Shown here: positions 9,865 to 30,073 of the stretch, in pieces
How positions within the stretch are numbered: the first letter of the stretch is position 1
How the letters are laid out: every line of letters begins with the position of its first letter
From: a virus
DNA length: 30,722 nt
Virus record (IMG/VR): IMGVR_UViG_3300042556_003686
Location: 1 to 30,722 of that record
Strand: one strand, 5' to 3'
The notes under the pieces: model-generated
What the model saw: only the letters and a program-made list of their open reading frames with translations
Told to the model about the DNA's origin: nothing
Database searches by the model: none
Program-made: the position numbers and the translations under genes

Positions 9865-12800
9865 TTATTCGGGATTCTCCGCGTTTTCCATCGCGCCCAC
9901 GATGGGTTTGGCGAAGTTGAGCAGGGCCGCGGGCGCGGCGAGCGTGGGGTTGAAGCTGGCGAAGCGGAGCAGGTTGTTCCACTGCTTGAGCATGGCCTCG
10001 GGGTCCGAGGTGTTGAACGTATTGTCCCAGCCTTTGATGGAGCGGATGCCGCGGTCGATCATCTCGTTGGCCGGATCGGTCGATTGGAATGTCATTTCAC
10101 CGAATGCTTCGCGCACCACGGTCGAACCCACGGTGCCCACCAGCATGTACCCGGAGAGCGGGGCCAGCATCATGGCCATGGCATAGCCTTCAAGCGTCCA
10201 GATTTCATCGTCCGGCTCGTCGCTGAACCAATCGCGGTAGAGGTTGGCCATCGTCTGGGTGACCACGGCCATGATCATCAGCGCGGAAATGGTGCTGGCA
10301 CCTTTGCCCCGCTCGCCTTCTTTGCCCAGCTGGCCGATGGCCTCGGCAAAGAGGGCCGTCTTCAAGCGGGCGTCCGAGAGGAACATCATGTAGACCTTTT
10401 GGAGCATGTTGCCCTGCACTTCCCGAAGCGACCGGCTGGTGATGTCGATTGGCTGGCTGTAGTTGAAGACCGCCTTGTCCATGGCGTCGAGGGCGGCCTG
10501 CTCGGCCATGGCATCAGACGCCTCGGCTTTCTTGGCCTTGTTGTAAGCGTTGCGGTAGACGATGGCGGCGGTAAAGCTGGTGAGCGCGGCATCGGTCATC
10601 TGCATCGGAATCATGGATTTCTGGGCGGCCCAGAGGAGCATGCTCGGGCGGACCGCGGCCCGCTCAAACACGTAGCGCACCTCGGGCCGGCTGCCTTCGA
10701 TGAGACGCCGTTGCACGGTGTCCGAGTTCCACGCCTTGGGCATGTCCGCCATCCACCGCGGGTCCAAGACGGTCTTGGTGTATTCGGCAAGGCCCATGTC
10801 CAGGGCGGCACGGCTGGCCGCGTCGATCTGCATGAAAAGGGTGCGGACACTGAATCCCAGCGAGGCAATGCTCTTGGCGCTGATGAGGGCGGCCCAAATG
10901 TCCTTGTCCGCGGAGAGTTCCATGGCGCGGCGTCCCCCACCCTGGGCCAGCGTGTCCATCCACTGGTCGAAGATCTGCAACCCGCTCCGCCCCATGGTGG
11001 CTTCCATCGATTCGCGCACGTTCTGGTTTTTGAGCACCCCGCGGATCTCGCGGTTGATCTCGGCAAAGTTAATCCAGTGACCCATCTGGGCGGCGTGCTG
11101 GAAGAAGACGGTGATGGCATCGGTCCGGCGCATGCGGGCATCGTGGCGTTGGCGGGCCTTGAGCGATCCGGGCGTGGTGCCGGCCAGTTCGAGCGCACTG
11201 CCCATGGGGGAAAGGTCATTGCTGTCATCCTTGTGCCGGTAGCGCGTGGGCGCGTAGTTCTCGATGCGGGGCATGGCCATGCCAAACATCTTCATGTAGA
11301 CGGGGTCCGCGGCATCCCCGCCGGCTTTGTATTCGCGGCGGAGGAAATCCATCGTGGCTTCCCCACCGGGGACCGAGGTGACCATCTTTTGCATGTCCTC
11401 GATGGATTCGTCGGTCCATCCCTGCCGGCGCATGCGGGCCTGCACCTCGCTCTGGTCCCAAGCGAGCAGCAGCTGCATGGCCTCGGCGGGTGACATGTTC
11501 AATTTGTCATCGGTGCCCTCGCTTTGCAGCACGTAGAATTCGAGGAATTGCTGGCGGTTGGGCGTCTCGCGCACGGCCCCGGAGGGCGTGGTGCGCCGGC
11601 GCATGATCGGCACGGCCAAGTAGGCTTCGCTCATCTTGGCCACGGCCTCGGCATTCAGACCGAAAGCCTTGGCCGAGGCGCGGCCTTCGAGGATGTTGGC
11701 CGCCGTTTCCATGGGCAGGCGGATGAGCTTCTCGTTGTAGCCCTCCTTGTAGCGGACCGCGGCCTTTCGCGTCTTCCGCATATCGTACATGAGCCGGCCC
11801 ACGCCAAAGCTGGTCTTCTTGCCGCTGGCCGCCATGAGCATATCGATGAACCGCTTGGCCGCGTCCATCCGGTATCGGCTGCTCCCAATTTCGGCTTGGC
11901 GGATCGACCGCTCCCACGTTTCGAGGAAGCCGGCCTTGGGCAGGACGCTCCGTAGCAGCTGCATGAAGCTGTAGTGCGAGAGGACAAATTGCCGCGGGTT
12001 CTTCAGCCACGGGTTCTCTTTGTCCATCTTATCGATCTGGTTCTCGGTGGCCTTCTTTAGACCGCCGGCCAGTTCCTCGGCCATGTCGCGGTATTGCTTG
12101 CGGCGGGCCTCCTGCTGCATGCGCCACATAGCGCGTCCGGCCCCAAACGTCTGGCGAAGGAATACCCGCGCCTGGTCGAGTTCCAAGGCGGAGCGGTTGA
12201 AAAAGTCGCCCAAGGCATTGAGCACGCCCCACTGTTCGAGCAGCTGCTCTTGCCGGTCCGGCGTGATGTCCGGGCTGGCCAGGGCGGCCTCGATCTCGGC
12301 CATGGTGTTGGACGTTTCGTCGGTGCCCAGTTCGATGGCGGCGATGGCCAGGTTGGCCACGCGCTGGGCGTCCGGCCCGAGGCTGCTGGTCTGGACCTTG
12401 TTCTCCCCGGGCCTGGGCATGGCGCGTTCGAGGAGATCCATGATGTCCTCCTGCAATTCGGTGCGGAGGTATTTCTCCAGGGCGGCGTCCGCCTTGGCAA
12501 TGCGGTCGGTGAGGTAATTGAGCCGGCCCTTGGCCGTGGAAAAGGAAAGCAGACGGCGGAATCCCCCCACCTCGGATTGTGCGTCCGGCGGGAGCAGCGT
12601 GATGATGGCTTCCAGCTGGGCCACGGCCTCGGGCATGGAAAGCGGTTCGAGGTCCGCCTTGTTGGCAAACTGCTCTTTGATCCGCTTGAATTTGGCAAGC
12701 ACCGCGGCCACCCGCTCCCGGCGGAAGGCGGGGTTGCTGTTGAGCGCGGCCACCGCGGACTCGAGGTCGCCGTAGTAGGACGCCGGCGAGATGGCGAAGG

Positions 12801-15800
12801 TGGATTCAAGCTGGACCGCCGCGGGATTTACCACGATGGCCGCGGGAATCACGTCACCGTCATCTCGGCGCTGGTCATAGTAAATGGCACCATCAAACCC
12901 GTTGGCTTTCAGTGCGTCTTGAAATGTTTCCTCTTGCGATGCTTCCTCATGGAACAGGTCTTCCATGGCAATGCCATTTGCTTTGGCAAATTCCTCAACA
13001 TCATCAACCGGCAAAAAGCGACCTTGAACCACCAAGCGCACCGGCGTTCCGTAGCCGGCTCCGTCTTGCATGCTGCTCACGTAAATTGGCCGGTCCTCAA
13101 CTTCGGTCAACGCCTGCTCGCTACCGTGATAAGCGATGAAGCGCACGTTGCCATTGGGCAGCGTAATCTCGTTGAATCCGCTGCGGTCCGGTTCCGGCGC
13201 GATGGAATACGAAGGCGTGCCGGCGGCTACAGCATCATCGTAAGCCTGGACGGCGGAATCGACATCCGCCCGGGACAAGCCGAGGGCTTGCAGCTGGTAA
13301 TCGTTGGAAGACCTTAACTCGCTGACAACTGAAGCGATTCCTCGGGGAAGTAGGTCTGGAGCATTTCCAGCATTCCCTGGAGCACTGGCACCGTCAGCGC
13401 GTCCTCCCCCTTGCTCTTGCGATCCGCTGCCACCCAGGCCGACAGACGCTTCTCCTGCTCCGGTCCCAGCTGGCGAACCTTGTCCGCCGGCCAAGCGGCT
13501 TTCATCCTCTGCCTTAATTTCAGCGAGGCTTCCTGTGGCGTCTTGGTCGTTTCCTTGGAGGAGTTGTTCATAGCTCTCTCGATTCCACTTCATCCATACC
13601 ACCTGGGGCATGGTCTGTCCACTCCAACCTTGGCTATGCCACACTTGGCGGAGGTCGGAAATCTTTCCGGGTTCTTGGTGATACTGTGGGTCAAAGTCCA
13701 CCGCCTTTTGTTCTTCAAATCCAAAGCGGGCATAGAGGCTGGGCAGCAGACCGTTGGGGTATTTACCCGAGACAACTTTGTAGCAGTCCAGGCGGGTTCC
13801 GCCCTCGCTGATGGCTTTGCTCATTATGAGGTTGAGCATGCCCGGGGCGGATAGCTCATTGTTCACCACGCCCACAATCGACCACTCGGTATCCGGGTCG
13901 CCCGGGTCAAACTCGCTGCCATCGGGACGCTTCAGCGCAAAGTAGACTTCCATTTCGCCCAGCTGGTAAATCCGCATCTTGCCTTGCTTCATCAAGGCGT
14001 TGATTTCCTCGGGCGTGTATAGCGTCAGCGTGACCGCGGCATCGTTGTTGCGAAGCGCACGGCTAAATTCGGCAATGCCGGCCTGTCGCGGTTTGTCGAG
14101 CACCCGCCATTGCTTGTTCAAGGCGGCAGTCACTGCGGCGGCCTGGTTGGGTACCAGCGTGGTCTGGCTTGTCGCCCATTGAGAAGCCATCTGCTTGCTA
14201 ATCTTCTGCACCTTGGGCGTGCCAATTGGCATGCGGCCCTTGAGGTAATAGCCATCGTTGCCACGCCCCGCCAAGGCCGCCCGCATCGTCGGCATGGCCA
14301 GTTCGTAAGGAATGGGCGTGCGGAAGTGGGCAATGACGCGCCCGGGTGCAAATGCGTTGTAGCTGGCGTGCGCCGGGACGTTAAAATCCGCGGCAGAAAG
14401 CGTGTTGTTTTTTAGTCCTTCCTCGAGACGTTTGACATCGATCTCAAGCAGCGAAAAACCAGACAGCTGTGGAGTGCCGGCATACGAAGGGTCGGTAGTA
14501 GCACGCCGGATCTGCTGCATCGGCGGAGCATTAAGTTTTTCCGCTTTGGCGGACGAGAGCTTGTCGGCAATGAAAGCACGTTGCTCAAAATTCAAACTGT
14601 CGATGTACGCATCAAACTGCTGGCTGGTAAACGCCCGCGGGAATTCAGTCAACGGCTTGTGAAAATTGATCTCTTTCTGGTCTTTGGATTTAGCGATGAT
14701 CTTTTGCGCGGCCTCGATGACGCCGTCCGCCAGGGCTGCCTCGTCCTGGCTGGAAATTCGGCCTTCGCGCACGTAGCGTTCGATCTCGCTGATCTTCTCC
14801 GTGACCACCGTGGTGTTGGAGGTATGCGCTTCCAGGCTCATCGCATACGGCATTATGAGAAACTTTTTGCGCCCATCTTGGCCTACGTAAATGGCCTTGG
14901 ATGCCCGGGCGGCGTTGAGCTTGGCCCGCCAAAATCCGGCGTTTCTGGCCGCCCACACTACCTTGCCAAGGTTGGCCGGATCTACGGCAAACGCCGGTCC
15001 GCCTTGGGCCAGCATCTTGCTGAATTTTCCTCCGCCCGCGGTGCGGTCTGCTTCGATGGGAACAAAACTTTTACCGATGACCCAATCGGGAATCATCCCG
15101 GGGACGCCCCCCCGGTCCGCCAGGATGTTGGCCGCGGTTACGCTGACGCTGATGGAGAAGGATCGGCTGTCGCCATCTCCTGTGCTCGCTGGAGCAAAAC
15201 GGCCCCGGCCTCCGCCAAGTCCATCACCTCCGCGGCTTCGGTCGCCAAAGCTGCCAATTCGTTCGAGGACGATTCCTCGTTGTTCAAGGGTTTTGAGGTA
15301 GGCTCCATAGGATTCGGGTGTCTTTCCACTTTTTACAATAGAGTGTGCCCAAAGTGCAGCTTGAACCTGCCGGGGTGTCCACCCTATTTCGGCGGCAATC
15401 TCGGTAAGTATCTGCTGCGCTTTGGCGAATTGTGCCGCGGTGGGCGAATCCACTCCAAAAATCAGACGGGCAATGTGCCGGTCTACCACCGGCTGGTCAT
15501 CCTGGCCGGCGTTGCTGGCGCGGTAGGCTTTGATCTTTTGGCCCTGCACCTGTGCGCTATCGCGGAGCCGGTTCAGATTCATAATCACCGCGGGCAGGAA
15601 TCCGTCGAATTCCTCGCCGCGCAACCATTGCCCAAATGCTTTAAGGCCCAAGCCCACATTGGCTTTGACGCTGGCCGCCTGGGAAGTGACATCCAGGATC
15701 TGTTGGAACATTTGAGCGTAATCGCCAAAAAATTCGTCAAGCACTTCCCGATGTTCTTCGTACCAATCTTTCCATGACGCTTGCGACAGCGCGGCATCGG

Positions 15801-18678
15801 TCAACGCTTGCCGCGTCATGCGAACGCGGAGCGAATTGCGCTTGGGGCTGATGGCAAAACTGCTTTCGACTAATCCTCCAGCATTAATTTCCGCTCTCGC
15901 CTGCTGGGCCGCCTGCACTCCGATCTGCCGGTCAATGTCGAGGCCCACGCTTTGGGCGAGGAATGCCTCAAATTCCGGTGCGATCTGGCCGGCGGCGATG
16001 GCTTCTTTGATGCGGATGCCGCGGGCGAAGATGGTGGCGAAGTATTCTTTTAGTGCCTCGAAGAAAGCGCGGAGCCGGGACGAGACGCGGGCGTTGTCCA
16101 GGTTGCCGGTGTAGTAGGCCACCGACATGGTGCTGACGGCCTCGACCACGTCACGTGACGTGAAGTCCTGTTCGAGGATGTTGTCGCCGGTGTTGGCCTC
16201 GTATTCCCGAATCCACCCCACCATATCGGCCTCGGAGAATTGGCCGGCTTGCAGGGCGATCTTGTATTGGCCCTCGGCGCGGTCTTCGAGGACGGCGCGG
16301 ATCTCCTCTTGAGACGTGGCCTTGACTACGCGGGTGATGCTTTGAAAAAGATTTTCTTTAATTTGCTCAAGCGTATTGACCGCGGTGAGGTTGACCGCGG
16401 CCCCCGGCTGCCATTTTTTTCCTGTTTCCCGCTCCCATTGTTCAATGCGCCTTTGCAGCTGCTCGGGCGTCATGTTGTTGTAGCGGTTGACCACTTCTTG
16501 CGTGGTCACTTGGATCTGCTCGCTAAATCCTTCTGGGTTGGTCGCTTGGCCGGCCTCGAGGAGGGCGTTGATCAGTTCCCCTTGGACGCTGGCAAAAAGT
16601 GTCTCGCTGCTGCCGGCGATGCGCTCAAATTCATAGAAAGCGGTATCCACGTCCACGCGGTCCGCGATGGTATTGCCCTCGGCGTCGAGCACGGTGAAGC
16701 GGTCCCCGTCCCGGCGGATGCTGGGCTGGAAAGGATCGGCGGGTTCCTGTAGCTGGGCCATGGTGTCCACGAAAAGCTGGCGGCGTCCGGCCTCGATGAG
16801 GGCGGGGTCGCGGGCGGCCTCGGCTTCCTTAAACGCGGCCACGCGCTCCTTCTTGGTCAGCGAGGTCGAGACGCGGTCAGCCTGCTCCTCGCTCATGCCA
16901 AAATACTTGAGCATCTTCTTATCCTGGAGGTAGGCCGCGTTGCGCCCGATCTCCTGCGAGGTGATAAAGGGCAGGCCGGTGAGAGTGAAAAGCAGCATGG
17001 TCACCGCGGTCACGCCCAGTTCCTCGTCAAATGCCTCGAGGTCTTTGCGCCAATCGTAGTCCGGTATGTCATCGCTCAAGGCGGCTCCCAGGGTTTGCAG
17101 GATGGGCAGGACGCGGTTCTGGGACAGTTCGATGCCGGTTTCCATGCCAAAGCTGGCGGTGCCCCGGGCAATGATCCGCGTCATGGGATTGCGCGAAGGC
17201 TTGAGGAAAAATTTGATGGCGCGGTCGAGGGACACGAATCGGCCCATGACCAAGTTGGCTTGGATTAGCTCGAGGCCGGCGGCCATGGGGGCGGCCAAGG
17301 CGGAAATCGCTGCCGCTTGGTCGGGGTCCATGTCGGGGTACTCAAGGAGGAGGTCATCCTTGTATTGCCCAAAGAAAGACGCGGTGATGGCGGGGAAACC
17401 GACAAAGGGAATGGCGGCGATGCCGGCGTAAGGGATCGATCCGACAAAGCCGTAGAAGCCCTGCTCCCACGTGGGCCAATCGGTGACCACCTTGATCGGG
17501 TCGATCTGGGTATCGGCCAAGTTGACCAGTTCGCGCTTGATCTGGAGGATCTTCAGTTTGCGGGCGGCGTCCGCCTTGAGCTTCTCACGCTGCTCCGCGG
17601 TGATCGGGGCTTGGCCGGACGTGGGCGCTTGGCTCAATCCCTTGCTCCCGTCGAGGTTGGTTGCCTCGTAGAGCGGAAGGTCGCTCTGGAGCAGACGCTG
17701 CTGGCCGCGGATGGATTCCTCGGTGAAGTTGCGGCTGATGCGCTCGCCCATCTCGCGGGTGAGGAAGCGGCCCAAGGTTTCCGCGGCTTGGTAGAAGACG
17801 CCCTTGTTGACTTGGTTGAGTTCGGCAAAGGCCCCGGCCAGAAGGTAGATCGATTGCCGGCGCTCGGTCGGCATGTCGGCAAACTTCTCGAGGATCTGCT
17901 CGGTCTGGAAGTTGAGCATCTCGGGGTCGTTCAGATCGACCTCGCCCGCGGGGGCGGCCTCGGGCTGCTTGACCGCCAGATTCATCACCGGACCCAGACC
18001 GCCCACCGTGCCGGCGGGGTTGGGTTGCTCGCCGGCCAGTTCGTATTCCTGCCCGCGTCCGGTCTGCTTGCTGACGATATCAAAGAGCCAGCGGGCCTCG
18101 TCCCCGATGGAATCATTGGCGCGGCGGAGGTTGTCCGCCATCTTGTCCGCGTTCTCCCGGATACGGAGCCGGTCTTCATCGGAGAGGATTTCGCCGGCCT
18201 CGGTGAGCTTCTGCTCGAGGAGCGGGCGGTAGGCAGGCTGGCCGGTGATGTCGGTGCCGGCTTGGGAATCGAAGAGGCCCTGGAAGACCGATTTCTGCAC
18301 CTCTTGGTAGATGCCATCCGCCGCGGTGTTGACCTCGTTCTCGCGGTCAAACTGCTTTTTGAAATAGTTGAAGAGGCCCTCGTCGGAGAGCGTGGGCGTT
18401 TGCAGCGCGGTCTTGCCGATCTCGTTTTTCTTGGCCTCGTAGATGGCGGGCATTTCTTCCGCGGGGATCTCGAGGCTGCTCGACAAGTAGGCAATGTTGG
18501 CCTGCCGCTTGGCGTACGTTTCGGGAAAAGGCGAGAGGGACGCGCCGGTCTGGATGGCCGGACGCTTGGCAAACTCCCCGAAATAGTCGGGATCGGTATA
18601 GACGCGGTTCCAGTGATTGTCGGGAAGTTCGCGGTCCCGGCTTTCGATGGCCAGCTGTTGTCCTTCGTTGGGCGTCAT
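9865..18678 (-). CDS. giant ejection (gp16-position) polyvalent protein, 2937 aa
   Basis: It holds the gp16 position, before the tail fibre, but is over twice T7 gp16's 1318 residues. Approximate residues: 400-475 and 550-570, hydrophobic stretches; 934, SFAISP; 1030-1113, a helical domain with VVDRHIARLIFGVDSP (resembles DUF7178); 1173, SFSIS, then a domain with DWVIGKSFVPIEADRTAGGG; 1545-1690, GNAT-like with LLPSLYARFGFEE; 1700-1790, Gly/Ser linker; 1821, SYSIAP; 1835-1950, ADP-ribosyltransferase-like (YHGSEQAL, PIYVSSMQDGAGYG, GFDGAIYYDQ); 1957, TFAISP; then a long helical region with two hydrophobic segments at 2796-2820 and 2829-2855. This is the layout of large polyvalent proteins delivered with DNA. 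Probably part of the trans-envelope ejection conduit that also carries effectors into the host. ATG overlaps the previous stop (ATGA). Domain names are pattern-based. Confidence 0.85.
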   Translation of the reverse strand: MTPNEGQQLAIESRDRELPDNHWNRVYTDPDYFGEFAKRPAIQTGASLSPFPETYAKRQANIAYLSSSLEIPAEEMPAIYEAKKNEIGKTALQTPTLSDEGLFNYFKKQFDRENEVNTAADGIYQEVQKSVFQGLFDSQAGTDITGQPAYRPLLEQKLTEAGEILSDEDRLRIRENADKMADNLRRANDSIGDEARWLFDIVSKQTGRGQEYELAGEQPNPAGTVGGLGPVMNLAVKQPEAAPAGEVDLNDPEMLNFQTEQILEKFADMPTERRQSIYLLAGAFAELNQVNKGVFYQAAETLGRFLTREMGERISRNFTEESIRGQQRLLQSDLPLYEATNLDGSKGLSQAPTSGQAPITAEQREKLKADAARKLKILQIKRELVNLADTQIDPIKVVTDWPTWEQGFYGFVGSIPYAGIAAIPFVGFPAITASFFGQYKDDLLLEYPDMDPDQAAAISALAAPMAAGLELIQANLVMGRFVSLDRAIKFFLKPSRNPMTRIIARGTASFGMETGIELSQNRVLPILQTLGAALSDDIPDYDWRKDLEAFDEELGVTAVTMLLFTLTGLPFITSQEIGRNAAYLQDKKMLKYFGMSEEQADRVSTSLTKKERVAAFKEAEAARDPALIEAGRRQLFVDTMAQLQEPADPFQPSIRRDGDRFTVLDAEGNTIADRVDVDTAFYEFERIAGSSETLFASVQGELINALLEAGQATNPEGFSEQIQVTTQEVVNRYNNMTPEQLQRRIEQWERETGKKWQPGAAVNLTAVNTLEQIKENLFQSITRVVKATSQEEIRAVLEDRAEGQYKIALQAGQFSEADMVGWIREYEANTGDNILEQDFTSRDVVEAVSTMSVAYYTGNLDNARVSSRLRAFFEALKEYFATIFARGIRIKEAIAAGQIAPEFEAFLAQSVGLDIDRQIGVQAAQQARAEINAGGLVESSFAISPKRNSLRVRMTRQALTDAALSQASWKDWYEEHREVLDEFFGDYAQMFQQILDVTSQAASVKANVGLGLKAFGQWLRGEEFDGFLPAVIMNLNRLRDSAQVQGQKIKAYRASNAGQDDQPVVDRHIARLIFGVDSPTAAQFAKAQQILTEIAAEIGWTPRQVQAALWAHSIVKSGKTPESYGAYLKTLEQRGIVLERIGSFGDRSRGGDGLGGGRGRFAPASTGDGDSRSFSISVSVTAANILADRGGVPGMIPDWVIGKSFVPIEADRTAGGGKFSKMLAQGGPAFAVDPANLGKVVWAARNAGFWRAKLNAARASKAIYVGQDGRKKFLIMPYAMSLEAHTSNTTVVTEKISEIERYVREGRISSQDEAALADGVIEAAQKIIAKSKDQKEINFHKPLTEFPRAFTSQQFDAYIDSLNFEQRAFIADKLSSAKAEKLNAPPMQQIRRATTDPSYAGTPQLSGFSLLEIDVKRLEEGLKNNTLSAADFNVPAHASYNAFAPGRVIAHFRTPIPYELAMPTMRAALAGRGNDGYYLKGRMPIGTPKVQKISKQMASQWATSQTTLVPNQAAAVTAALNKQWRVLDKPRQAGIAEFSRALRNNDAAVTLTLYTPEEINALMKQGKMRIYQLGEMEVYFALKRPDGSEFDPGDPDTEWSIVGVVNNELSAPGMLNLIMSKAISEGGTRLDCYKVVSGKYPNGLLPSLYARFGFEEQKAVDFDPQYHQEPGKISDLRQVWHSQGWSGQTMPQVVWMKWNRESYEQLLQGNDQDATGSLAEIKAEDESRLAGGQGSPAGTGAGEASVGLGGSGSQEQGGGRADGASAPGNAGNAPDLLPRGIASVVSELRSSNDYQLQALGLSRADVDSAVQAYDDAVAAGTPSYSIAPEPDRSGFNEITLPNGNVRFIAYHGSEQALTEVEDRPIYVSSMQDGAGYGTPVRLVVQGRFLPVDDVEEFAKANGIAMEDLFHEEASQEETFQDALKANGFDGAIYYDQRRDDGDVIPAAIVVNPAAVQLESTFAISPASYYGDLESAVAALNSNPAFRRERVAAVLAKFKRIKEQFANKADLEPLSMPEAVAQLEAIITLLPPDAQSEVGGFRRLLSFSTAKGRLNYLTDRIAKADAALEKYLRTELQEDIMDLLERAMPRPGENKVQTSSLGPDAQRVANLAIAAIELGTDETSNTMAEIEAALASPDITPDRQEQLLEQWGVLNALGDFFNRSALELDQARVFLRQTFGAGRAMWRMQQEARRKQYRDMAEELAGGLKKATENQIDKMDKENPWLKNPRQFVLSHYSFMQLLRSVLPKAGFLETWERSIRQAEIGSSRYRMDAAKRFIDMLMAASGKKTSFGVGRLMYDMRKTRKAAVRYKEGYNEKLIRLPMETAANILEGRASAKAFGLNAEAVAKMSEAYLAVPIMRRRTTPSGAVRETPNRQQFLEFYVLQSEGTDDKLNMSPAEAMQLLLAWDQSEVQARMRRQGWTDESIEDMQKMVTSVPGGEATMDFLRREYKAGGDAADPVYMKMFGMAMPRIENYAPTRYRHKDDSNDLSPMGSALELAGTTPGSLKARQRHDARMRRTDAITVFFQHAAQMGHWINFAEINREIRGVLKNQNVRESMEATMGRSGLQIFDQWMDTLAQGGGRRAMELSADKDIWAALISAKSIASLGFSVRTLFMQIDAASRAALDMGLAEYTKTVLDPRWMADMPKAWNSDTVQRRLIEGSRPEVRYVFERAAVRPSMLLWAAQKSMIPMQMTDAALTSFTAAIVYRNAYNKAKKAEASDAMAEQAALDAMDKAVFNYSQPIDITSRSLREVQGNMLQKVYMMFLSDARLKTALFAEAIGQLGKEGERGKGASTISALMIMAVVTQTMANLYRDWFSDEPDDEIWTLEGYAMAMMLAPLSGYMLVGTVGSTVVREAFGEMTFQSTDPANEMIDRGIRSIKGWDNTFNTSDPEAMLKQWNNLLRFASFNPTLAAPAALLNFAKPIVGAMENAENPE
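13314..13571 (-). CDS. possible overlapping gene inside the giant gene, 85 aa
   Basis: In the +1 frame relative to the giant gene there is a frame from ATG 13569-13571 to TAA 13314-13316. It reads like a real protein: MNNSSKETTKTPQEASLKLR, then PADKVRQLGPEQEKRLSAWV and VLQGMLEMLQTYFPEESLQ. GAGAG lies a few bases before the ATG as a weak Shine-Dalgarno. Over the same bases the giant protein is low-complexity Gly/Ser/Ala/Gln, which is what overprinting, or a neutral linker, would give. It could be a separate small protein, or an alternative C-terminus reached by a +1 frameshift after the GNAT-like module. It could also be a chance frame of a GC-rich linker, so confidence is low. Confidence 0.35.
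   Translation of the reverse strand: MNNSSKETTKTPQEASLKLRQRMKAAWPADKVRQLGPEQEKRLSAWVAADRKSKGEDALTVPVLQGMLEMLQTYFPEESLQLSAS
15863..15876 (-). repeat. dispersed 13-bp repeat, copy 3, inside the giant gene
   Basis: CTTTCGACTAATCC on the plus strand, exact over the 13-bp core (15864-15876). In the coding sense GGATTAGTCGAAAG encodes Gly-Leu-Val-Glu-Ser, immediately before SFAISP, the first interdomain motif of the giant protein. It is the only copy within a gene. Confidence 0.85.
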
Positions 18679-27123: not shown

Positions 27124-27130
27124 GATGTTT

Positions 27131-27137
27131 CTCCTTT
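27131..27137 (-). promoter_or_regulatory. strong ribosome-binding site of the capsid gene
   Basis: AAAGGAG (CTCCTTT on the plus strand) lies 7 nt upstream of the capsid ATG. Most other late genes rely on ATGA overlaps or lack an obvious Shine-Dalgarno, so this site probably drives higher capsid output. Confidence 0.75.
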
Positions 27138-27140
27138 GGT

Positions 27141-27158
27141 TTTTCGACTAACCCCGCG
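27141..27158 (-). repeat. dispersed 13-bp repeat, near copy 5
   Basis: TTTTCGACTAACCCCGCG differs from the consensus at one base (T to C). In the sense direction it reads CGCGGGGTTAGTCGAAAA and lies just ahead of the capsid ribosome-binding site. A small hairpin (CCGC-GTTG-GCGG) follows on the plus strand. Confidence 0.75.
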
Positions 27159-27286
27159 TTGGCGGTGTCGGTCGGGTTTTTGGTTTTCTGTCCCTCGGCC
27201 TACCGGATTGTCTGCACAGTGCAGGTCCCGGCCTGTTGGGTTTGCCGCGGGCAGGCTCACCAAGGAGTTGTCTGCTCTCGTACTAC
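27159..27286 (-). promoter_or_regulatory. structured leader between two repeat copies, upstream of capsid
   Basis: About 130 bp without a gene are bounded by two same-orientation copies of the 13-bp repeat. The minus strand can form several hairpins: GCCTG...CAGGC, the tight CTGCAC-T-GTGCAG, and GGCC...GGCC around them. No intrinsic terminator with a U tract is evident. It could be a processed or stabilised capsid leader, or the decayed remains of another RNA gene like the tRNA next to copy 7. Confidence 0.35.
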
Positions 27287-27307
27287 CTTTCGACTAATCC
27301 CGCGCAG
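27287..27307 (-). repeat. dispersed 13-bp repeat, copy 6 (extended form)
   Basis: CTTTCGACTAATCCCGCGCAG; the 13-bp core is exact and the extension CGCGCAG is shared with copy 7. Next to it CCGCG-CAGCAA-CGCGG forms a hairpin. It lies between the membrane gene ending at 27330 and the structured leader. Confidence 0.85.
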
Positions 27308-27329
27308 CAACGCGGTCAAAAAGAAATTT

Positions 27330-27485
27330 CTATTTCGAGCCGAAAACGCAAATGTAGAGGAAGCCTATATTCCCGAGGCTGTATCCGGCGAAGGCGATGG
27401 ACATTCCGATCTGGCCCTGTTTGTAGAATCCTATCGAGGTGGCAATATAACAGGCCGTGCAGATAAGCAGCGGGACGGTGGTCAT
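27330..27485 (-). CDS. small two-span membrane protein, 51 aa
   Basis: The ATG at 27483-27485 overlaps the stop of the HEXXH gene (ATGA), which decides this start. The 51 residues have two hydrophobic segments separated by KQGQ: VPLLICTACYIATSIGF and MSIAFAGYSLGNIGFLYICV. It is the last gene before the capsid leader and belongs to the scaffold-capsid cassette. There is no known structural role for such a protein between scaffold and capsid. Its function is unknown. Confidence 0.6.
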   Translation of the reverse strand: MTTVPLLICTACYIATSIGFYKQGQIGMSIAFAGYSLGNIGFLYICVFGSK

Positions 27486-27797: not shown

Positions 27798-28049
27798 TTA
27801 CTCCATTTTCTGGCGGTAGTGCGGGACCGAATAGACCCCGCGCTTGGGTGTCGGGACGTGAAATGTTTTGCGCTCAATGCGTCCGGCTTTGACCGCTTTG
27901 TTCAAACTGATCCGCATGTAGTCCACCGATCTGCCCACGGCCTCGGCAATCTCGGGCACGGTGTGCCATCCGGCGGGCACATGGTCCGCGGGACGTTGCA
28001 GGTTGATGGCCGCTTTCCACGCGGCGGCGTTGATCATTTCCGCGGTCAT
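27798..28049 (-). CDS. small winged-helix/HTH protein, 83 aa
   Basis: The start at 28047-28049 overlaps the stop of the phosphoesterase gene as TATGA. The 83 residues include GWHTVPEIAEAVGRSVDYMR, then LNKAVKAGRIERKTF and a wing-like GVYSVPHYRQK. This is a winged-helix layout: recognition helix around SVDYMRISLNKA, then a basic strand. It may regulate late genes or pack with a virion enzyme; a DNA-binding protein within the head-gene cassette is unusual. An overlapping long frame that continues upstream in another frame of the phosphoesterase is a shadow and was rejected. Confidence 0.65.
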   Translation of the reverse strand: MTAEMINAAAWKAAINLQRPADHVPAGWHTVPEIAEAVGRSVDYMRISLNKAVKAGRIERKTFHVPTPKRGVYSVPHYRQKME

Positions 28050-28840
28050 AGGTTTGTGATGACCGGCGGCGGCGGGTTGAAGGTGAAGTTGTGGACGTGA
28101 GGCAGGGTCCCCTCCTCCAAGCCACGCCAATCGAGCACGATGACGCTGGGACGCGGAATGGCGTCCGGCACCACCTTCTTCCCGTGGCGGGTGAGGAATT
28201 GCCATCCTCCGGTCACGGCGAGCATGCCGGCCCCGTCCGTATACCAACCGCCACAATGGCGATGGGCGCGGAGGTAAACACTCGGCACGGGATGACCGGA
28301 CCGGATGCAGTTGAGGCGGGCATTGCCCAAGTTGATGCTCATGGCGCTGGCCTCGAGGTAGGCTCGGCTGGTGGCCGGCATGTGATGGGTCGCGTTGCAG
28401 AGCGTGCCGTTGATGGTGAATAGCCAATGGTCGCGGGCCTCGCCGGCCCCGAGAAGGTTGGCCAGGTAGTCCTCGACGTTGTGCGTGTGGCATTCGGTGC
28501 CGCGGGTGATCAAGATCTTGGCTGCTTTTTCCGCGTAGCCTTTCAAGGCCGCGGCGGCCATCCGGCAATGGTCTTCGATCAAGGTGGCCACCACCTCGGG
28601 GGACCTGTGATGGATGCCCTCGGTTGCATCGCCATTGCACAAAAGGACGTAGGGATCATCGCCGGCCAAGTCGAAGACCCGCCGCATGCCCTCCTGCCAT
28701 TTGTCCCACAGCCACTCTTGGTGGTAGTTGGAACCAAAGCCCACCGTGTTGCCGTAATGCGTTTCCACATCCGGCGCGAGCAGGCCCACCGTGCTGCCAC
28801 AGTGCAGGTCGCTGACCACCACCAAGAGTTGGGGTTTCAT
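28046..28840 (-). CDS. calcineurin-like metallophosphoesterase, 264 aa
   Basis: Motifs of the two-metal phosphoesterase family appear in order: VSDLHCGS (Asp11, His13), CNGDATEG (Asp71), RGTECH (113-118, in the place of the usual Gly-Asn-His-Glu), ATHHM (His152/His153) and RAHRH (His193, His195). Metal ligands are thus mostly present, but the standard Asn-His of motif III is replaced by Thr-Glu, so the substrate may differ. Such enzymes hydrolyse phosphomonoesters or diesters of nucleic acids or nucleotides. It starts with ATG overlapping the scaffold stop (ATGA) and is therefore made together with head proteins. Role could be nucleotide metabolism, DNA processing during packaging, or inactivating a host defence signal; sequence alone cannot choose. 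Confidence 0.8.
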   Translation of the reverse strand: MKPQLLVVVSDLHCGSTVGLLAPDVETHYGNTVGFGSNYHQEWLWDKWQEGMRRVFDLAGDDPYVLLCNGDATEGIHHRSPEVVATLIEDHCRMAAAALKGYAEKAAKILITRGTECHTHNVEDYLANLLGAGEARDHWLFTINGTLCNATHHMPATSRAYLEASAMSINLGNARLNCIRSGHPVPSVYLRAHRHCGGWYTDGAGMLAVTGGWQFLTRHGKKVVPDAIPRPSVIVLDWRGLEEGTLPHVHNFTFNPPPPVITNL

Positions 28841-29673
28841 CGTTGGGAGAGGTAGGAGCGGACTTGGCGGACCACGTCTTCGTCACCTTCCTGGTAACGG
28901 CGGTGGAGCGGGTTCTCCGGGTTGGCAATGATGTCCAGAGCGCGATCCTTGCCCACTTGCATGGGGCTGGCGTTGGCACTGACCAGTTTGTCTTCCGCGA
29001 TTTGCTCCGCGGCCCAGACGGCCAGCTTGACCATGGCCGGATCAGCAAAGCCACGGGCGGTCGGATCGATGCCCGCGGTGATGGCGGCCCGCTTGGCCAA
29101 GTCGAGCTTCTCGCCAAACTTGTCGCCGTATTCGCTTTGCAGCTGCTCTTTGCCGGCTTGCAGCTGTTGGATGACCATTTGCTCGCTGGCTTGCGCCATG
29201 GCCTGCACTTGCCCGATTTGCAAGGCAGCCAGTTCCTTCATGGCCGCCGGCGGGATGTTGTGCTTGTGGGCCAATTGCGCGGCCTGCTTGGCCATGGCCT
29301 CGTCAAACTGCACGCCCTCGGGCAGGGCCTCGGGCTTGAGGCTCTTCAAGTAATCGTCCGGGCTTTCCGGCACGCCCAGGGCCTTGCGGAATTCCGCGAT
29401 TTCCTCGGGCTTGCTCTTCTCGTTGGGCACCAGAACCGATTGGCTCTTCCGGCCCAGGATCTCCTGCATGCCGCGGTAGCTTTTGGCCAGGGCTTGGTAA
29501 TCGGCTTGGCCTTCGCGCCAGAAGTTGTCGGGGAGCCATTCCGGCTTCTCCGCGGGTGCCGCGGGAGCGGATGGCTCGGAAGACGGGCTGGCCTCGAGCA
29601 GGCTGGTGACGGGTGCAGTTTCGGACGCCGGCGTGATGGCGGCGTCCCCGGCGGGTGCTGTGGATGTGTCCAT
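28837..29673 (-). CDS. capsid scaffolding (gp9-like) protein, 278 aa
   Basis: The N-terminal 45 residues are Ala/Pro/Ser-rich (SLLEASPSSEPSAPAAPAEK), then EWLPDNFWREGQADYQALAK. A helical body with KPEEIAEFRKALGVPESPDD follows, an acidic, coiled central segment, and a C-terminal helical end (EDVVRQVRSYLSQR). This is typical of podovirus scaffold proteins, which are acidic and contain PxxFW and KxxEEIAExRKALGVP motifs. It lies upstream of the capsid, as in T7, but separated from it by an inserted cassette of four non-structural-looking genes. A copy of the 13-bp repeat lies 12 nt upstream of the ATG. No clear Shine-Dalgarno is visible. Confidence 0.85.
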   Translation of the reverse strand: MDTSTAPAGDAAITPASETAPVTSLLEASPSSEPSAPAAPAEKPEWLPDNFWREGQADYQALAKSYRGMQEILGRKSQSVLVPNEKSKPEEIAEFRKALGVPESPDDYLKSLKPEALPEGVQFDEAMAKQAAQLAHKHNIPPAAMKELAALQIGQVQAMAQASEQMVIQQLQAGKEQLQSEYGDKFGEKLDLAKRAAITAGIDPTARGFADPAMVKLAVWAAEQIAEDKLVSANASPMQVGKDRALDIIANPENPLHRRYQEGDEDVVRQVRSYLSQR

Positions 29674-29684
29674 AAATTGGTTGG

Positions 29685-29705
29685 TTTTCGACTAATCCCG
29701 CGCAG
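29685..29705 (-). repeat. dispersed 13-bp repeat, copy 7 (extended form)
   Basis: TTTTCGACTAATCCCGCGCAG; exact core, and the same CGCGCAG extension as copy 6. It lies between the 3' end of the tRNA and the scaffold ATG, so it could lie at a processing or transcription junction. Confidence 0.85.
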
Positions 29706-29706
29706 G

Positions 29707-29779
29707 TTGCAGGGGTCGGATTTGCACCGACGATCTCCTTCGTTATGAGCGAGGCGAGATACTGCTTCTCCACCCTGCA
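29707..29779 (-). tRNA. tRNA with CAU anticodon, initiator-like (fMet-type) or derivative
   Basis: The minus strand folds as a cloverleaf. The acceptor TGCAGGG pairs with CCCTGCA in 7 of 7. The D stem GAGA pairs with TCTC. The anticodon loop is CTCATAA (CAU at 29745-29747). The T stem GTCGG pairs with CCGAC. It closely follows bacterial initiator tRNA: GGGTGGAG at the start, GCTCATAAC in the loop, and an A11:U24 pair. But position 1:72 is U:A instead of a mismatch. The three G:C pairs of the initiator anticodon stem are absent (stem CCTCG/CGAAG with a mismatch or bulge), the D-loop is short, and T-loop position 55 is G. No CCA is encoded (ends A-CCT). It lies 4 nt after one late gene and before the scaffold, so is cut out of the late transcript. 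Confidence 0.75.
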
Positions 29780-29782
29780 ATG

Positions 29783-30073
29783 TCAGCGCACGATCTTGGT
29801 CTTGGGTTGGTCAAAGTCGGCATCCCCCACCATTGGCTCGGAGAGCTTGTGTTGGATGAAAAGAAGCACCTCGCGTTGGCCATCGCGGAGGGCCGCGGCC
29901 AAGGGGTCATAGGAATTGTGCATGGAACGCTGGAAGGCGGGCCGGTCCACGCGGAAGTAGGAGCGGAGGTGCTCCAAGATGGCTTGCCCGTCCTCGCTCG
30001 AGAAGACGCGGTGAAAGGCGTTGGTGATTTGCTGGCCCTTCTTCTGGGCCTCGAGCGTGGCGTCACTTGTCAT
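29783..30073 (-). CDS. small head-region protein, Bbp19-like, 96 aa
   Basis: The 96 residues start MTSDATLEAQKKGQQITNAF and contain HRVFSSEDGQAILEHLRSYF followed by LRDGQREVLLFIQHKLSE. The order 'F-x-x-V-F-x-x-x-x-G-x-x-I-L-x-x-L ... D-G-x-R-x-V/L-x-x-I' fits the Bbp19-like phage structural family, small proteins encoded next to the portal in podoviruses. Its ATG overlaps the portal stop (ATGA-type overlap at 30070-30073). Likely a portal-associated or head-assembly component. Confidence 0.7.
   Translation of the reverse strand: MTSDATLEAQKKGQQITNAFHRVFSSEDGQAILEHLRSYFRVDRPAFQRSMHNSYDPLAAALRDGQREVLLFIQHKLSEPMVGDADFDQPKTKIVR

Follow-up and report, generated by a model that had tools for sequence, protein, structure and literature searches.

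The stretch of viral DNA analysed here (the window; 30,722 nucleotides, a 30.7-kb virus record of IMG/VR from a phage of freshwater type) holds exactly one tRNA gene, placed in the late operon beside the genes for capsid formation. The tRNA has a cloverleaf fold, is conserved in related phages, retains initiator identity positions and resembles initiators found in the phylum of its probable host; the allele in the window has been exchanged or has diversified. The reading that we favour, with a probability of roughly 55%, is that of a functional phage initiator-type tRNA (tRNA-fMet type) that is cut from the late transcript and augments the initiator pool, the allele of the window possibly serving in elongation as well. 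That it is processed, charged, formylated and used to initiate translation is our inference. The label is “initiator-type” rather than “proven initiator” because the tRNA lacks the three G:C pairs of the Escherichia coli rule (see below) and has lost G30:C40.

The tRNA gene and its place in the late operon

ARAGORN reports a tRNA-Met(cat) at 29705-29779 of the minus strand, and the Rfam tRNA model, run on a small stretch with permissive filters, matches 29707-29779 with 48.5 bits (E 1e-9). The whole-window Rfam scan at gathering thresholds missed the gene owing to its fast filters. The score with the phage-family model R1 is 71.9 bits. The first-pass annotation, made from the letters alone, had proposed an initiator-like tRNA(CAU) at this place in the late operon and a covariance model as a check of score and isotype; both the location and the Met(cat) isotype are borne out, the strand being the minus one. 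The features are listed in Table 1.

Table 1. Features of the tRNA gene and its surroundings (window coordinates).
Feature	Position	Strand	Basis or remark
Initiator-type tRNA(CAU), 73 nt, CCA not encoded	29707..29779	-	ARAGORN; Rfam; R1; R2
5′ half of the acceptor stem (UGCAGGG), complementary to 29708-29714; U1:A72, G2:C71, C3:G70	29773..29779	-	sequence
D arm GAGA-AGCAGTA-TCTC with A11:U24 and A18	29756..29770	-	alignment
Anticodon arm CCTCG-CTCATAA-CGAAG	29738..29754	-	sequence
Anticodon CAU	29745..29747	-	ARAGORN
T arm GTCGG-TGCAAAT-CCGAC; U54 G55 C56	29715..29731	-	alignment
Discriminator A73	29707	-	alignment; A in 30/30 distinct phage tRNAs
20-nt repeat CTGCGCGGGATTAGTCGAAA, immediately downstream of the tRNA	29686..29705	-	exact copy 27288-27307; 85% copy 27142-27161
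Portal/head-tail connector	from 30070 leftwards		
96-aa gene P0001, upstream of the tRNA	29783..30073	-	PHROG 5977, function unknown
Scaffold/assembly-like gene P0002, downstream of the tRNA	28837..29673	-	phrog_3742, phrog_458
264-aa protein	28046-28840	-	no PHROG match; sequence suggests metallophosphoesterase
Leader of the capsid gene, structured and conserved	27124..27345	-	alignment, fold
Major capsid protein gene P0003	26224..27123	-	phrog_3437, E 3e-67

The late operon is that of a T7-like podovirus and is encoded by the same strand as the tRNA, in the order portal/head-tail connector, 96-aa gene, tRNA, scaffold-like gene, 264-aa protein and major capsid protein. The stop codon of P0001 is spaced by 3 nt from the tRNA start, and 33 nt lie between the tRNA end and the start of P0002, whose slot in isolated relatives holds an annotated capsid assembly protein or protease. 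The 3-nt gap leaves no place for a promoter of the tRNA's own, so that the tRNA would have to be excised from the late transcript; a consensus scan found no sigma-70 promoter near it. A TTGACT sequence adjoins the tRNA in clade 2 (see below). Within the polycistronic late transcript the tRNA would be released by host enzymes, RNase P acting at the 5′ end and a 3′ processing enzyme at the other, followed by CCA addition; in the DNA, A73 is followed by CCT, i.e., CCA is not encoded. A single 2937-aa ORF (9865-18678, minus strand) was noticed in the tail/internal-virion region, of the roughly 40-kb podovirus type.

The tRNA reads, 5′ to 3′, TGCAGGG TG GAGA AGCAGTA TCTC G CCTCG CTCATAA CGAAG GAGATC GTCGG TGCAAAT CCGAC CCCTGCA A. 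The features first read from it are all present: A11:U24 within a fully paired D stem (GAGA/TCTC), the loop CTCATAA, the U1:A72 pair, and an anticodon stem without the three G:C pairs (GGG:CCC), in place of which stand U29:A41, C30:G40 and G31:C39. The remainder of this stem is a C:G pair at 27:43 and a C.A mismatch at 28:42. The cloverleaf lies 4.7 kcal/mol above the best fold in an energy model that leaves out tertiary contacts and modifications.

Conservation in related phages

A scan of viral contigs by capsid protein yielded three clades with capsid identities of 93-98% (clade 1, the window's own group), 56-61% (clade 2) and 66-68% (clade 3). In 37/37 clade-2 contigs with enough upstream sequence, all retrieved by the capsid protein alone and not by the tRNA, one initiator-type tRNA(CAU) precedes the capsid gene by 178-198 nt. 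It follows the scaffold stop codon by a few nt there and stands directly before the capsid-gene leader; in clade 1 it stands before the scaffold gene as in the window, about 2.6 kb from the capsid gene. A tRNA-pattern scan identified many further tRNAs at the same distance from the capsid gene, and the family model has exactly one match in each of seven near-full-length relatives (38-40 kb). In an alignment of 20 tRNAs (18 distinct), 91% of the cells are paired and 12 of 21 pairs show double changes, a level reached in 0/500 shuffles. This strong covariation of the stems, together with the recurrence of the same tRNA at the same place, shows that the gene is not a chance match. The cloverleaf is maintained across relatives by compensatory change, as for a functional tRNA and not for a pseudogene. 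The tRNA is absent from clade 3 and from isolated SAR11-type relatives; ARAGORN found none in the stretches read of HTVC010P, Skadi, Baldr, MEP301 and other phages with the same capsid type. It is thus dispensable for phages of this type.

The identity positions were compared in 30 distinct phage tRNAs drawn from 85 contigs. CAU, A73, G2:C71 and C3:G70 are invariant (30/30), while 1:72 is unpaired (U.U, C.A, C.U or A.A) in 29/30, the window allele alone having a U:A pair. The 11:24 pair is A11:U24 in 18 tRNAs, the window's among them with its purine 11 and pyrimidine 24, and U11:A24 in 12. Positions 18 and 55 switch jointly, being G18/U55 in clade 2 and A18/G55 in clade 1, perhaps through one event. 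The methionyl-tRNA synthetase (MetRS) identity elements, CAU and A73, are thereby present in the window tRNA and in all 30, and the host MetRS would charge the tRNA with methionine. Determinants of formylation are G2:C71, C3:G70, A73 and an unpaired 1:72 (PMC9976931). The window tRNA has the first three, and its 1:72 is a weak U:A pair, as in 6/29 initiators of the host phylum, so that formylation is probable. Once charged, the tRNA may add to the initiator pool late in infection, during bulk synthesis of the capsid protein.

Excision of the tRNA would also split the scaffold-capsid message from the late genes upstream, and the main role of the tRNA might be that of a cleavage mark parting the two. 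The tRNA is always intergenic: a stop codon precedes it by 3 nt in the window, and in clade 2 it comes a few nt behind the stop codon of the scaffold gene and is followed by the conserved structured capsid-gene leader. However, a pure cleavage signal needs neither CAU nor A73 nor an unpaired 1:72, and all of these are kept, which makes punctuation as the principal function rather unlikely. A literature search that covered few subscription papers returned none on tRNAs as punctuation marks of capsid operons in phages.

The window allele beside initiators of the probable host phylum

The initiator tRNA of E. coli is characterized by three G:C pairs at 29-31:39-41 and by a mismatch at 1:72. The only host lead for this phage family is one member (L227) found on a contig of a Verrucomicrobia MAG, whose binning may be wrong; the host link is weak since it rests on this single MAG-binned phage contig, which also holds a siphovirus module. 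Contig C79 of a Verrucomicrobia MAG holds a gene like that of tRNA-fMet, with a GGG:CCC stem (L262:230-303), which is embedded in frame in an ORF (61-747) similar to a siphovirus small terminase subunit. Initiators were gathered from 26 genomes of the MAG's family and from the phylum Verrucomicrobiota (loci L281-L339), giving 29 distinct sequences. A29:U41 replaces G29:C41 in 28 of the 29, position 1:72 is C.A (12), U.U (10), U:A (6) or C.C (1), and G30:C40 and G31:C39 are kept throughout (29/29). A29 is found in all 31 pattern matches within Verrucomicrobiota. It was rejected as a marker of the phylum, since in the Pseudomonadota used as control roughly one in three of the genomes that matched has it too. 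Four initiators (L329, L331, L332 and L334) share the window's acceptor TGCAGGG/CCCTGCA exactly, including U1:A72.

The E. coli rules therefore fail across Verrucomicrobiota (A29:U41 is almost universal and some initiators have U1:A72), and the “changed initiator features” noted in the first-pass annotation have to be judged against the host. Seen in this way, U1:A72 and the missing G29:C41 fall within the range of working initiators. The features are real but not specific to the phage, A29:U41 being found in 28/29 and U1:A72 in 6/29 of the Verrucomicrobiota initiators. The comparison with host initiators, which the same annotation had named as one able to overturn its proposal, largely does so for these two features but not for C30:G40, with a host taken from one MAG contig. 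The three-G:C-pair rule is broken by the window tRNA and by the Verrucomicrobiota initiators alike. Our search of the literature, in which subscription journals were poorly represented, found no paper on the initiators of this phylum.

Like Verrucomicrobiota tRNA-fMet, the window tRNA combines CAU, A11:U24, G2:C71 and C3:G70 with the absence of G29:C41; it differs by a 7-nt D loop, A18/G55, C30:G40, C28.A42 and the lack of an encoded CCA. The host elongator tRNA-Met shares the CAU anticodon, but the window tRNA has none of its G1:C72, C2:G71 and C11:G24, and so neither the strong 1:72 pair nor the Y11:R24 of elongators. Of the tRNAs in each of the 26 Verrucomicrobiota genomes, the phage-family model in most cases scores the initiator highest (about 65-70 bits versus 56 for the next tRNAs). 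The window tRNA shares 78% identity with host initiators, whereas its identity to the other host tRNAs sampled does not exceed 67%. A model of host initiators only (R2) gives it 69.8 bits, against 55.6 for elongator tRNA-Met and, by a small margin, 68.0 for the best non-initiator host tRNA; clade-2 tRNAs score 54.6-63.2 bits, overlapping non-initiators. An initiator origin, as first proposed, is supported by this proximity and by the identity positions kept. It is likely, though not overwhelming on sequence likeness alone, and the identity positions weigh more than similarity. Descent from the host initiator gene through an attachment site, with the phage integrase (1462-2610) using the host tRNA-fMet gene, was rejected on position and identity as scarcely credible: the phage does encode an integrase, but the tRNA is complete, stands about 27 kb away in the late operon and, being only 78% identical to host initiators, offers no crossover identity.

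The really unusual feature of the window allele is C30:G40, found in 0/29 host-phylum initiators and in 1/30 distinct phage tRNAs, the window's own. None of the other initiators examined, from phages or hosts, combines it with U1:A72. In E. coli, C30:G40 is the “M1” change, which lowers initiation about 20-fold and weakens start-codon discrimination, and it is the pair reported for the elongator tRNA-Met (PMC11497404). With these two pairs, the window allele may be selected less strongly at the P site and may enter elongation, and both roles are possible. A further step would be a dual or elongator tRNA, shifted so far that it mostly supplies methionine for elongation or tolerates weak start codons, for which speak the rarity of C30:G40, its loosening of start-codon choice and the fact that 1:72 is paired in no other phage allele. 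We consider this step unlikely, if worth keeping in mind, since the host phylum has initiators with U1:A72 that presumably work, and A11:U24, G2:C71, C3:G70 and A73 are all retained. The proposal of an “elongator made from an initiator” thus draws on a pair of changes unique to this allele, but the relatives in the same slot keep the initiator pattern, which makes elongation unlikely as the shared function. The other reading of that annotation, a regulator of initiation, is purely conjectural.

The allele is 100% identical in five contigs (the window, L002, L003, L006 and L084). Between the window and its sister L001 the tRNA is about 81% identical while the neighbouring genes are 96-98% identical; 13 substitutions, 8 of them in the anticodon arm, and one insertion separate the two. 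Of the five pairs changed, four differ on both sides (27:43, 29:41, 30:40 and 50:64) and 28:42 is broken. The C.A mismatch, the unusual T loop with G55 and the poor computed cloverleaf would suit a decaying copy of a host initiator tRNA, as the first-pass annotation had also considered. This is very improbable: 4/5 pairs carry compensatory changes, the five contigs have the same allele with all identity positions, A18/G55 change together and covariation in the family is strong. Low tRNA identity beside near-identical genes and the compensated pairs argue that the allele was replaced or diversified, not decayed, and the divergence is better explained if phages exchanged the tRNA or if its anticodon arm diversified fast. 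The nearest tRNA found, in phage contig L226 (89% identity, CCA encoded), shares U1:A72 and G55 with the window.

The same divergence might reflect evasion of a tRNA-cutting defence, a hypothesis taken from PMC10264068, in which the phage tRNA replaces a host initiator cut by VapC-type anticodon nucleases and escapes cutting itself through diversification of its anticodon arm. In hosts this arm, TCAGGCTCATAACCTGA, hardly varies, and it occurs in 0/30 distinct phage tRNAs; where the neighbouring genes of two phages are about 98% identical, the tRNAs differ by about 19%, mostly in this arm. On the other hand, the window loop CTCATAA is the host loop, and allele exchange by recombination would also explain the divergence, the closest tRNA (89% identity) being that of another phage, L226. 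One report notes that, where the VapC of a host cleaves tRNA-fMet, the phages of that host as a rule do not encode this tRNA (PMC10264068). We give this defence role a small but appreciable chance. A broader scheme is doubtful as a whole: the lineage would lock one initiator tRNA into the capsid operon as a late translation tool, C30:G40 and U1:A72 of the window would relax initiator/elongator and start-codon discrimination, and anticodon-arm exchange would be an arms race with initiator-cutting host nucleases.

Phage initiator-like tRNA-Met genes are already known, though little studied, and are annotated in Pseudomonas phage D3, Caulobacter phages (CcrColossus/CcrSC), Mesorhizobium phages and others. 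Together with that of L226, they have an initiator-like D arm and CAU as in the window, and those read are about 70-89% identical to its tRNA. Those read encode CCA or its start, and several stand in tRNA clusters or among accessory genes, whereas the window tRNA is alone and fixed beside capsid genes. New are this fixed position, the turnover of alleles and the finding that Verrucomicrobiota initiators depart from the E. coli rules at the level of the phylum. A lineage that keeps exactly one initiator-type tRNA by its capsid genes is a clean natural test of the role of phage initiator tRNAs, and the two allele types beside about 98% identical genes lend themselves to a direct comparison of initiation with elongation.

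Other elements of the window

Both further copies of the 20-nt repeat that follows the tRNA sit in the capsid-gene leader. A shorter version, GATTAGTCGAAAA, occurs 8 times with up to 2 mismatches in 20 kb of L002, where 0.2 occurrences are expected; the repeat is possibly a phage promoter or another late signal. The leader contains a hairpin (GCAGAC..CUCC..GAG.CUGC) that is nearly invariant in 14 diverse phages, and no Rfam match at gathering thresholds was found for it in the relatives tested.

A second structured RNA of about 99 nt, tRNA-like in outline, was noticed at 2678-2776 of the window (minus strand). It has a 7-8 bp acceptor-like stem GGCGGUGC and a T-arm-like hairpin, but five helices and a conserved 16-nt loop, and gives no Rfam match up to E 1. 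RNAs of this type, whose pairs covary, were found in 38 viral contigs and comprise 25 distinct sequences. A tRNA-like RNA of clade 3 was considered as a decayed form of the tRNA and rejected: it is a separate conserved RNA, present also at 2678-2776 of the window and beside the tRNA in the L002 contig, and because the two coexist it is no evidence about the tRNA. In some clade-3 phages this RNA directly precedes the capsid-gene leader.
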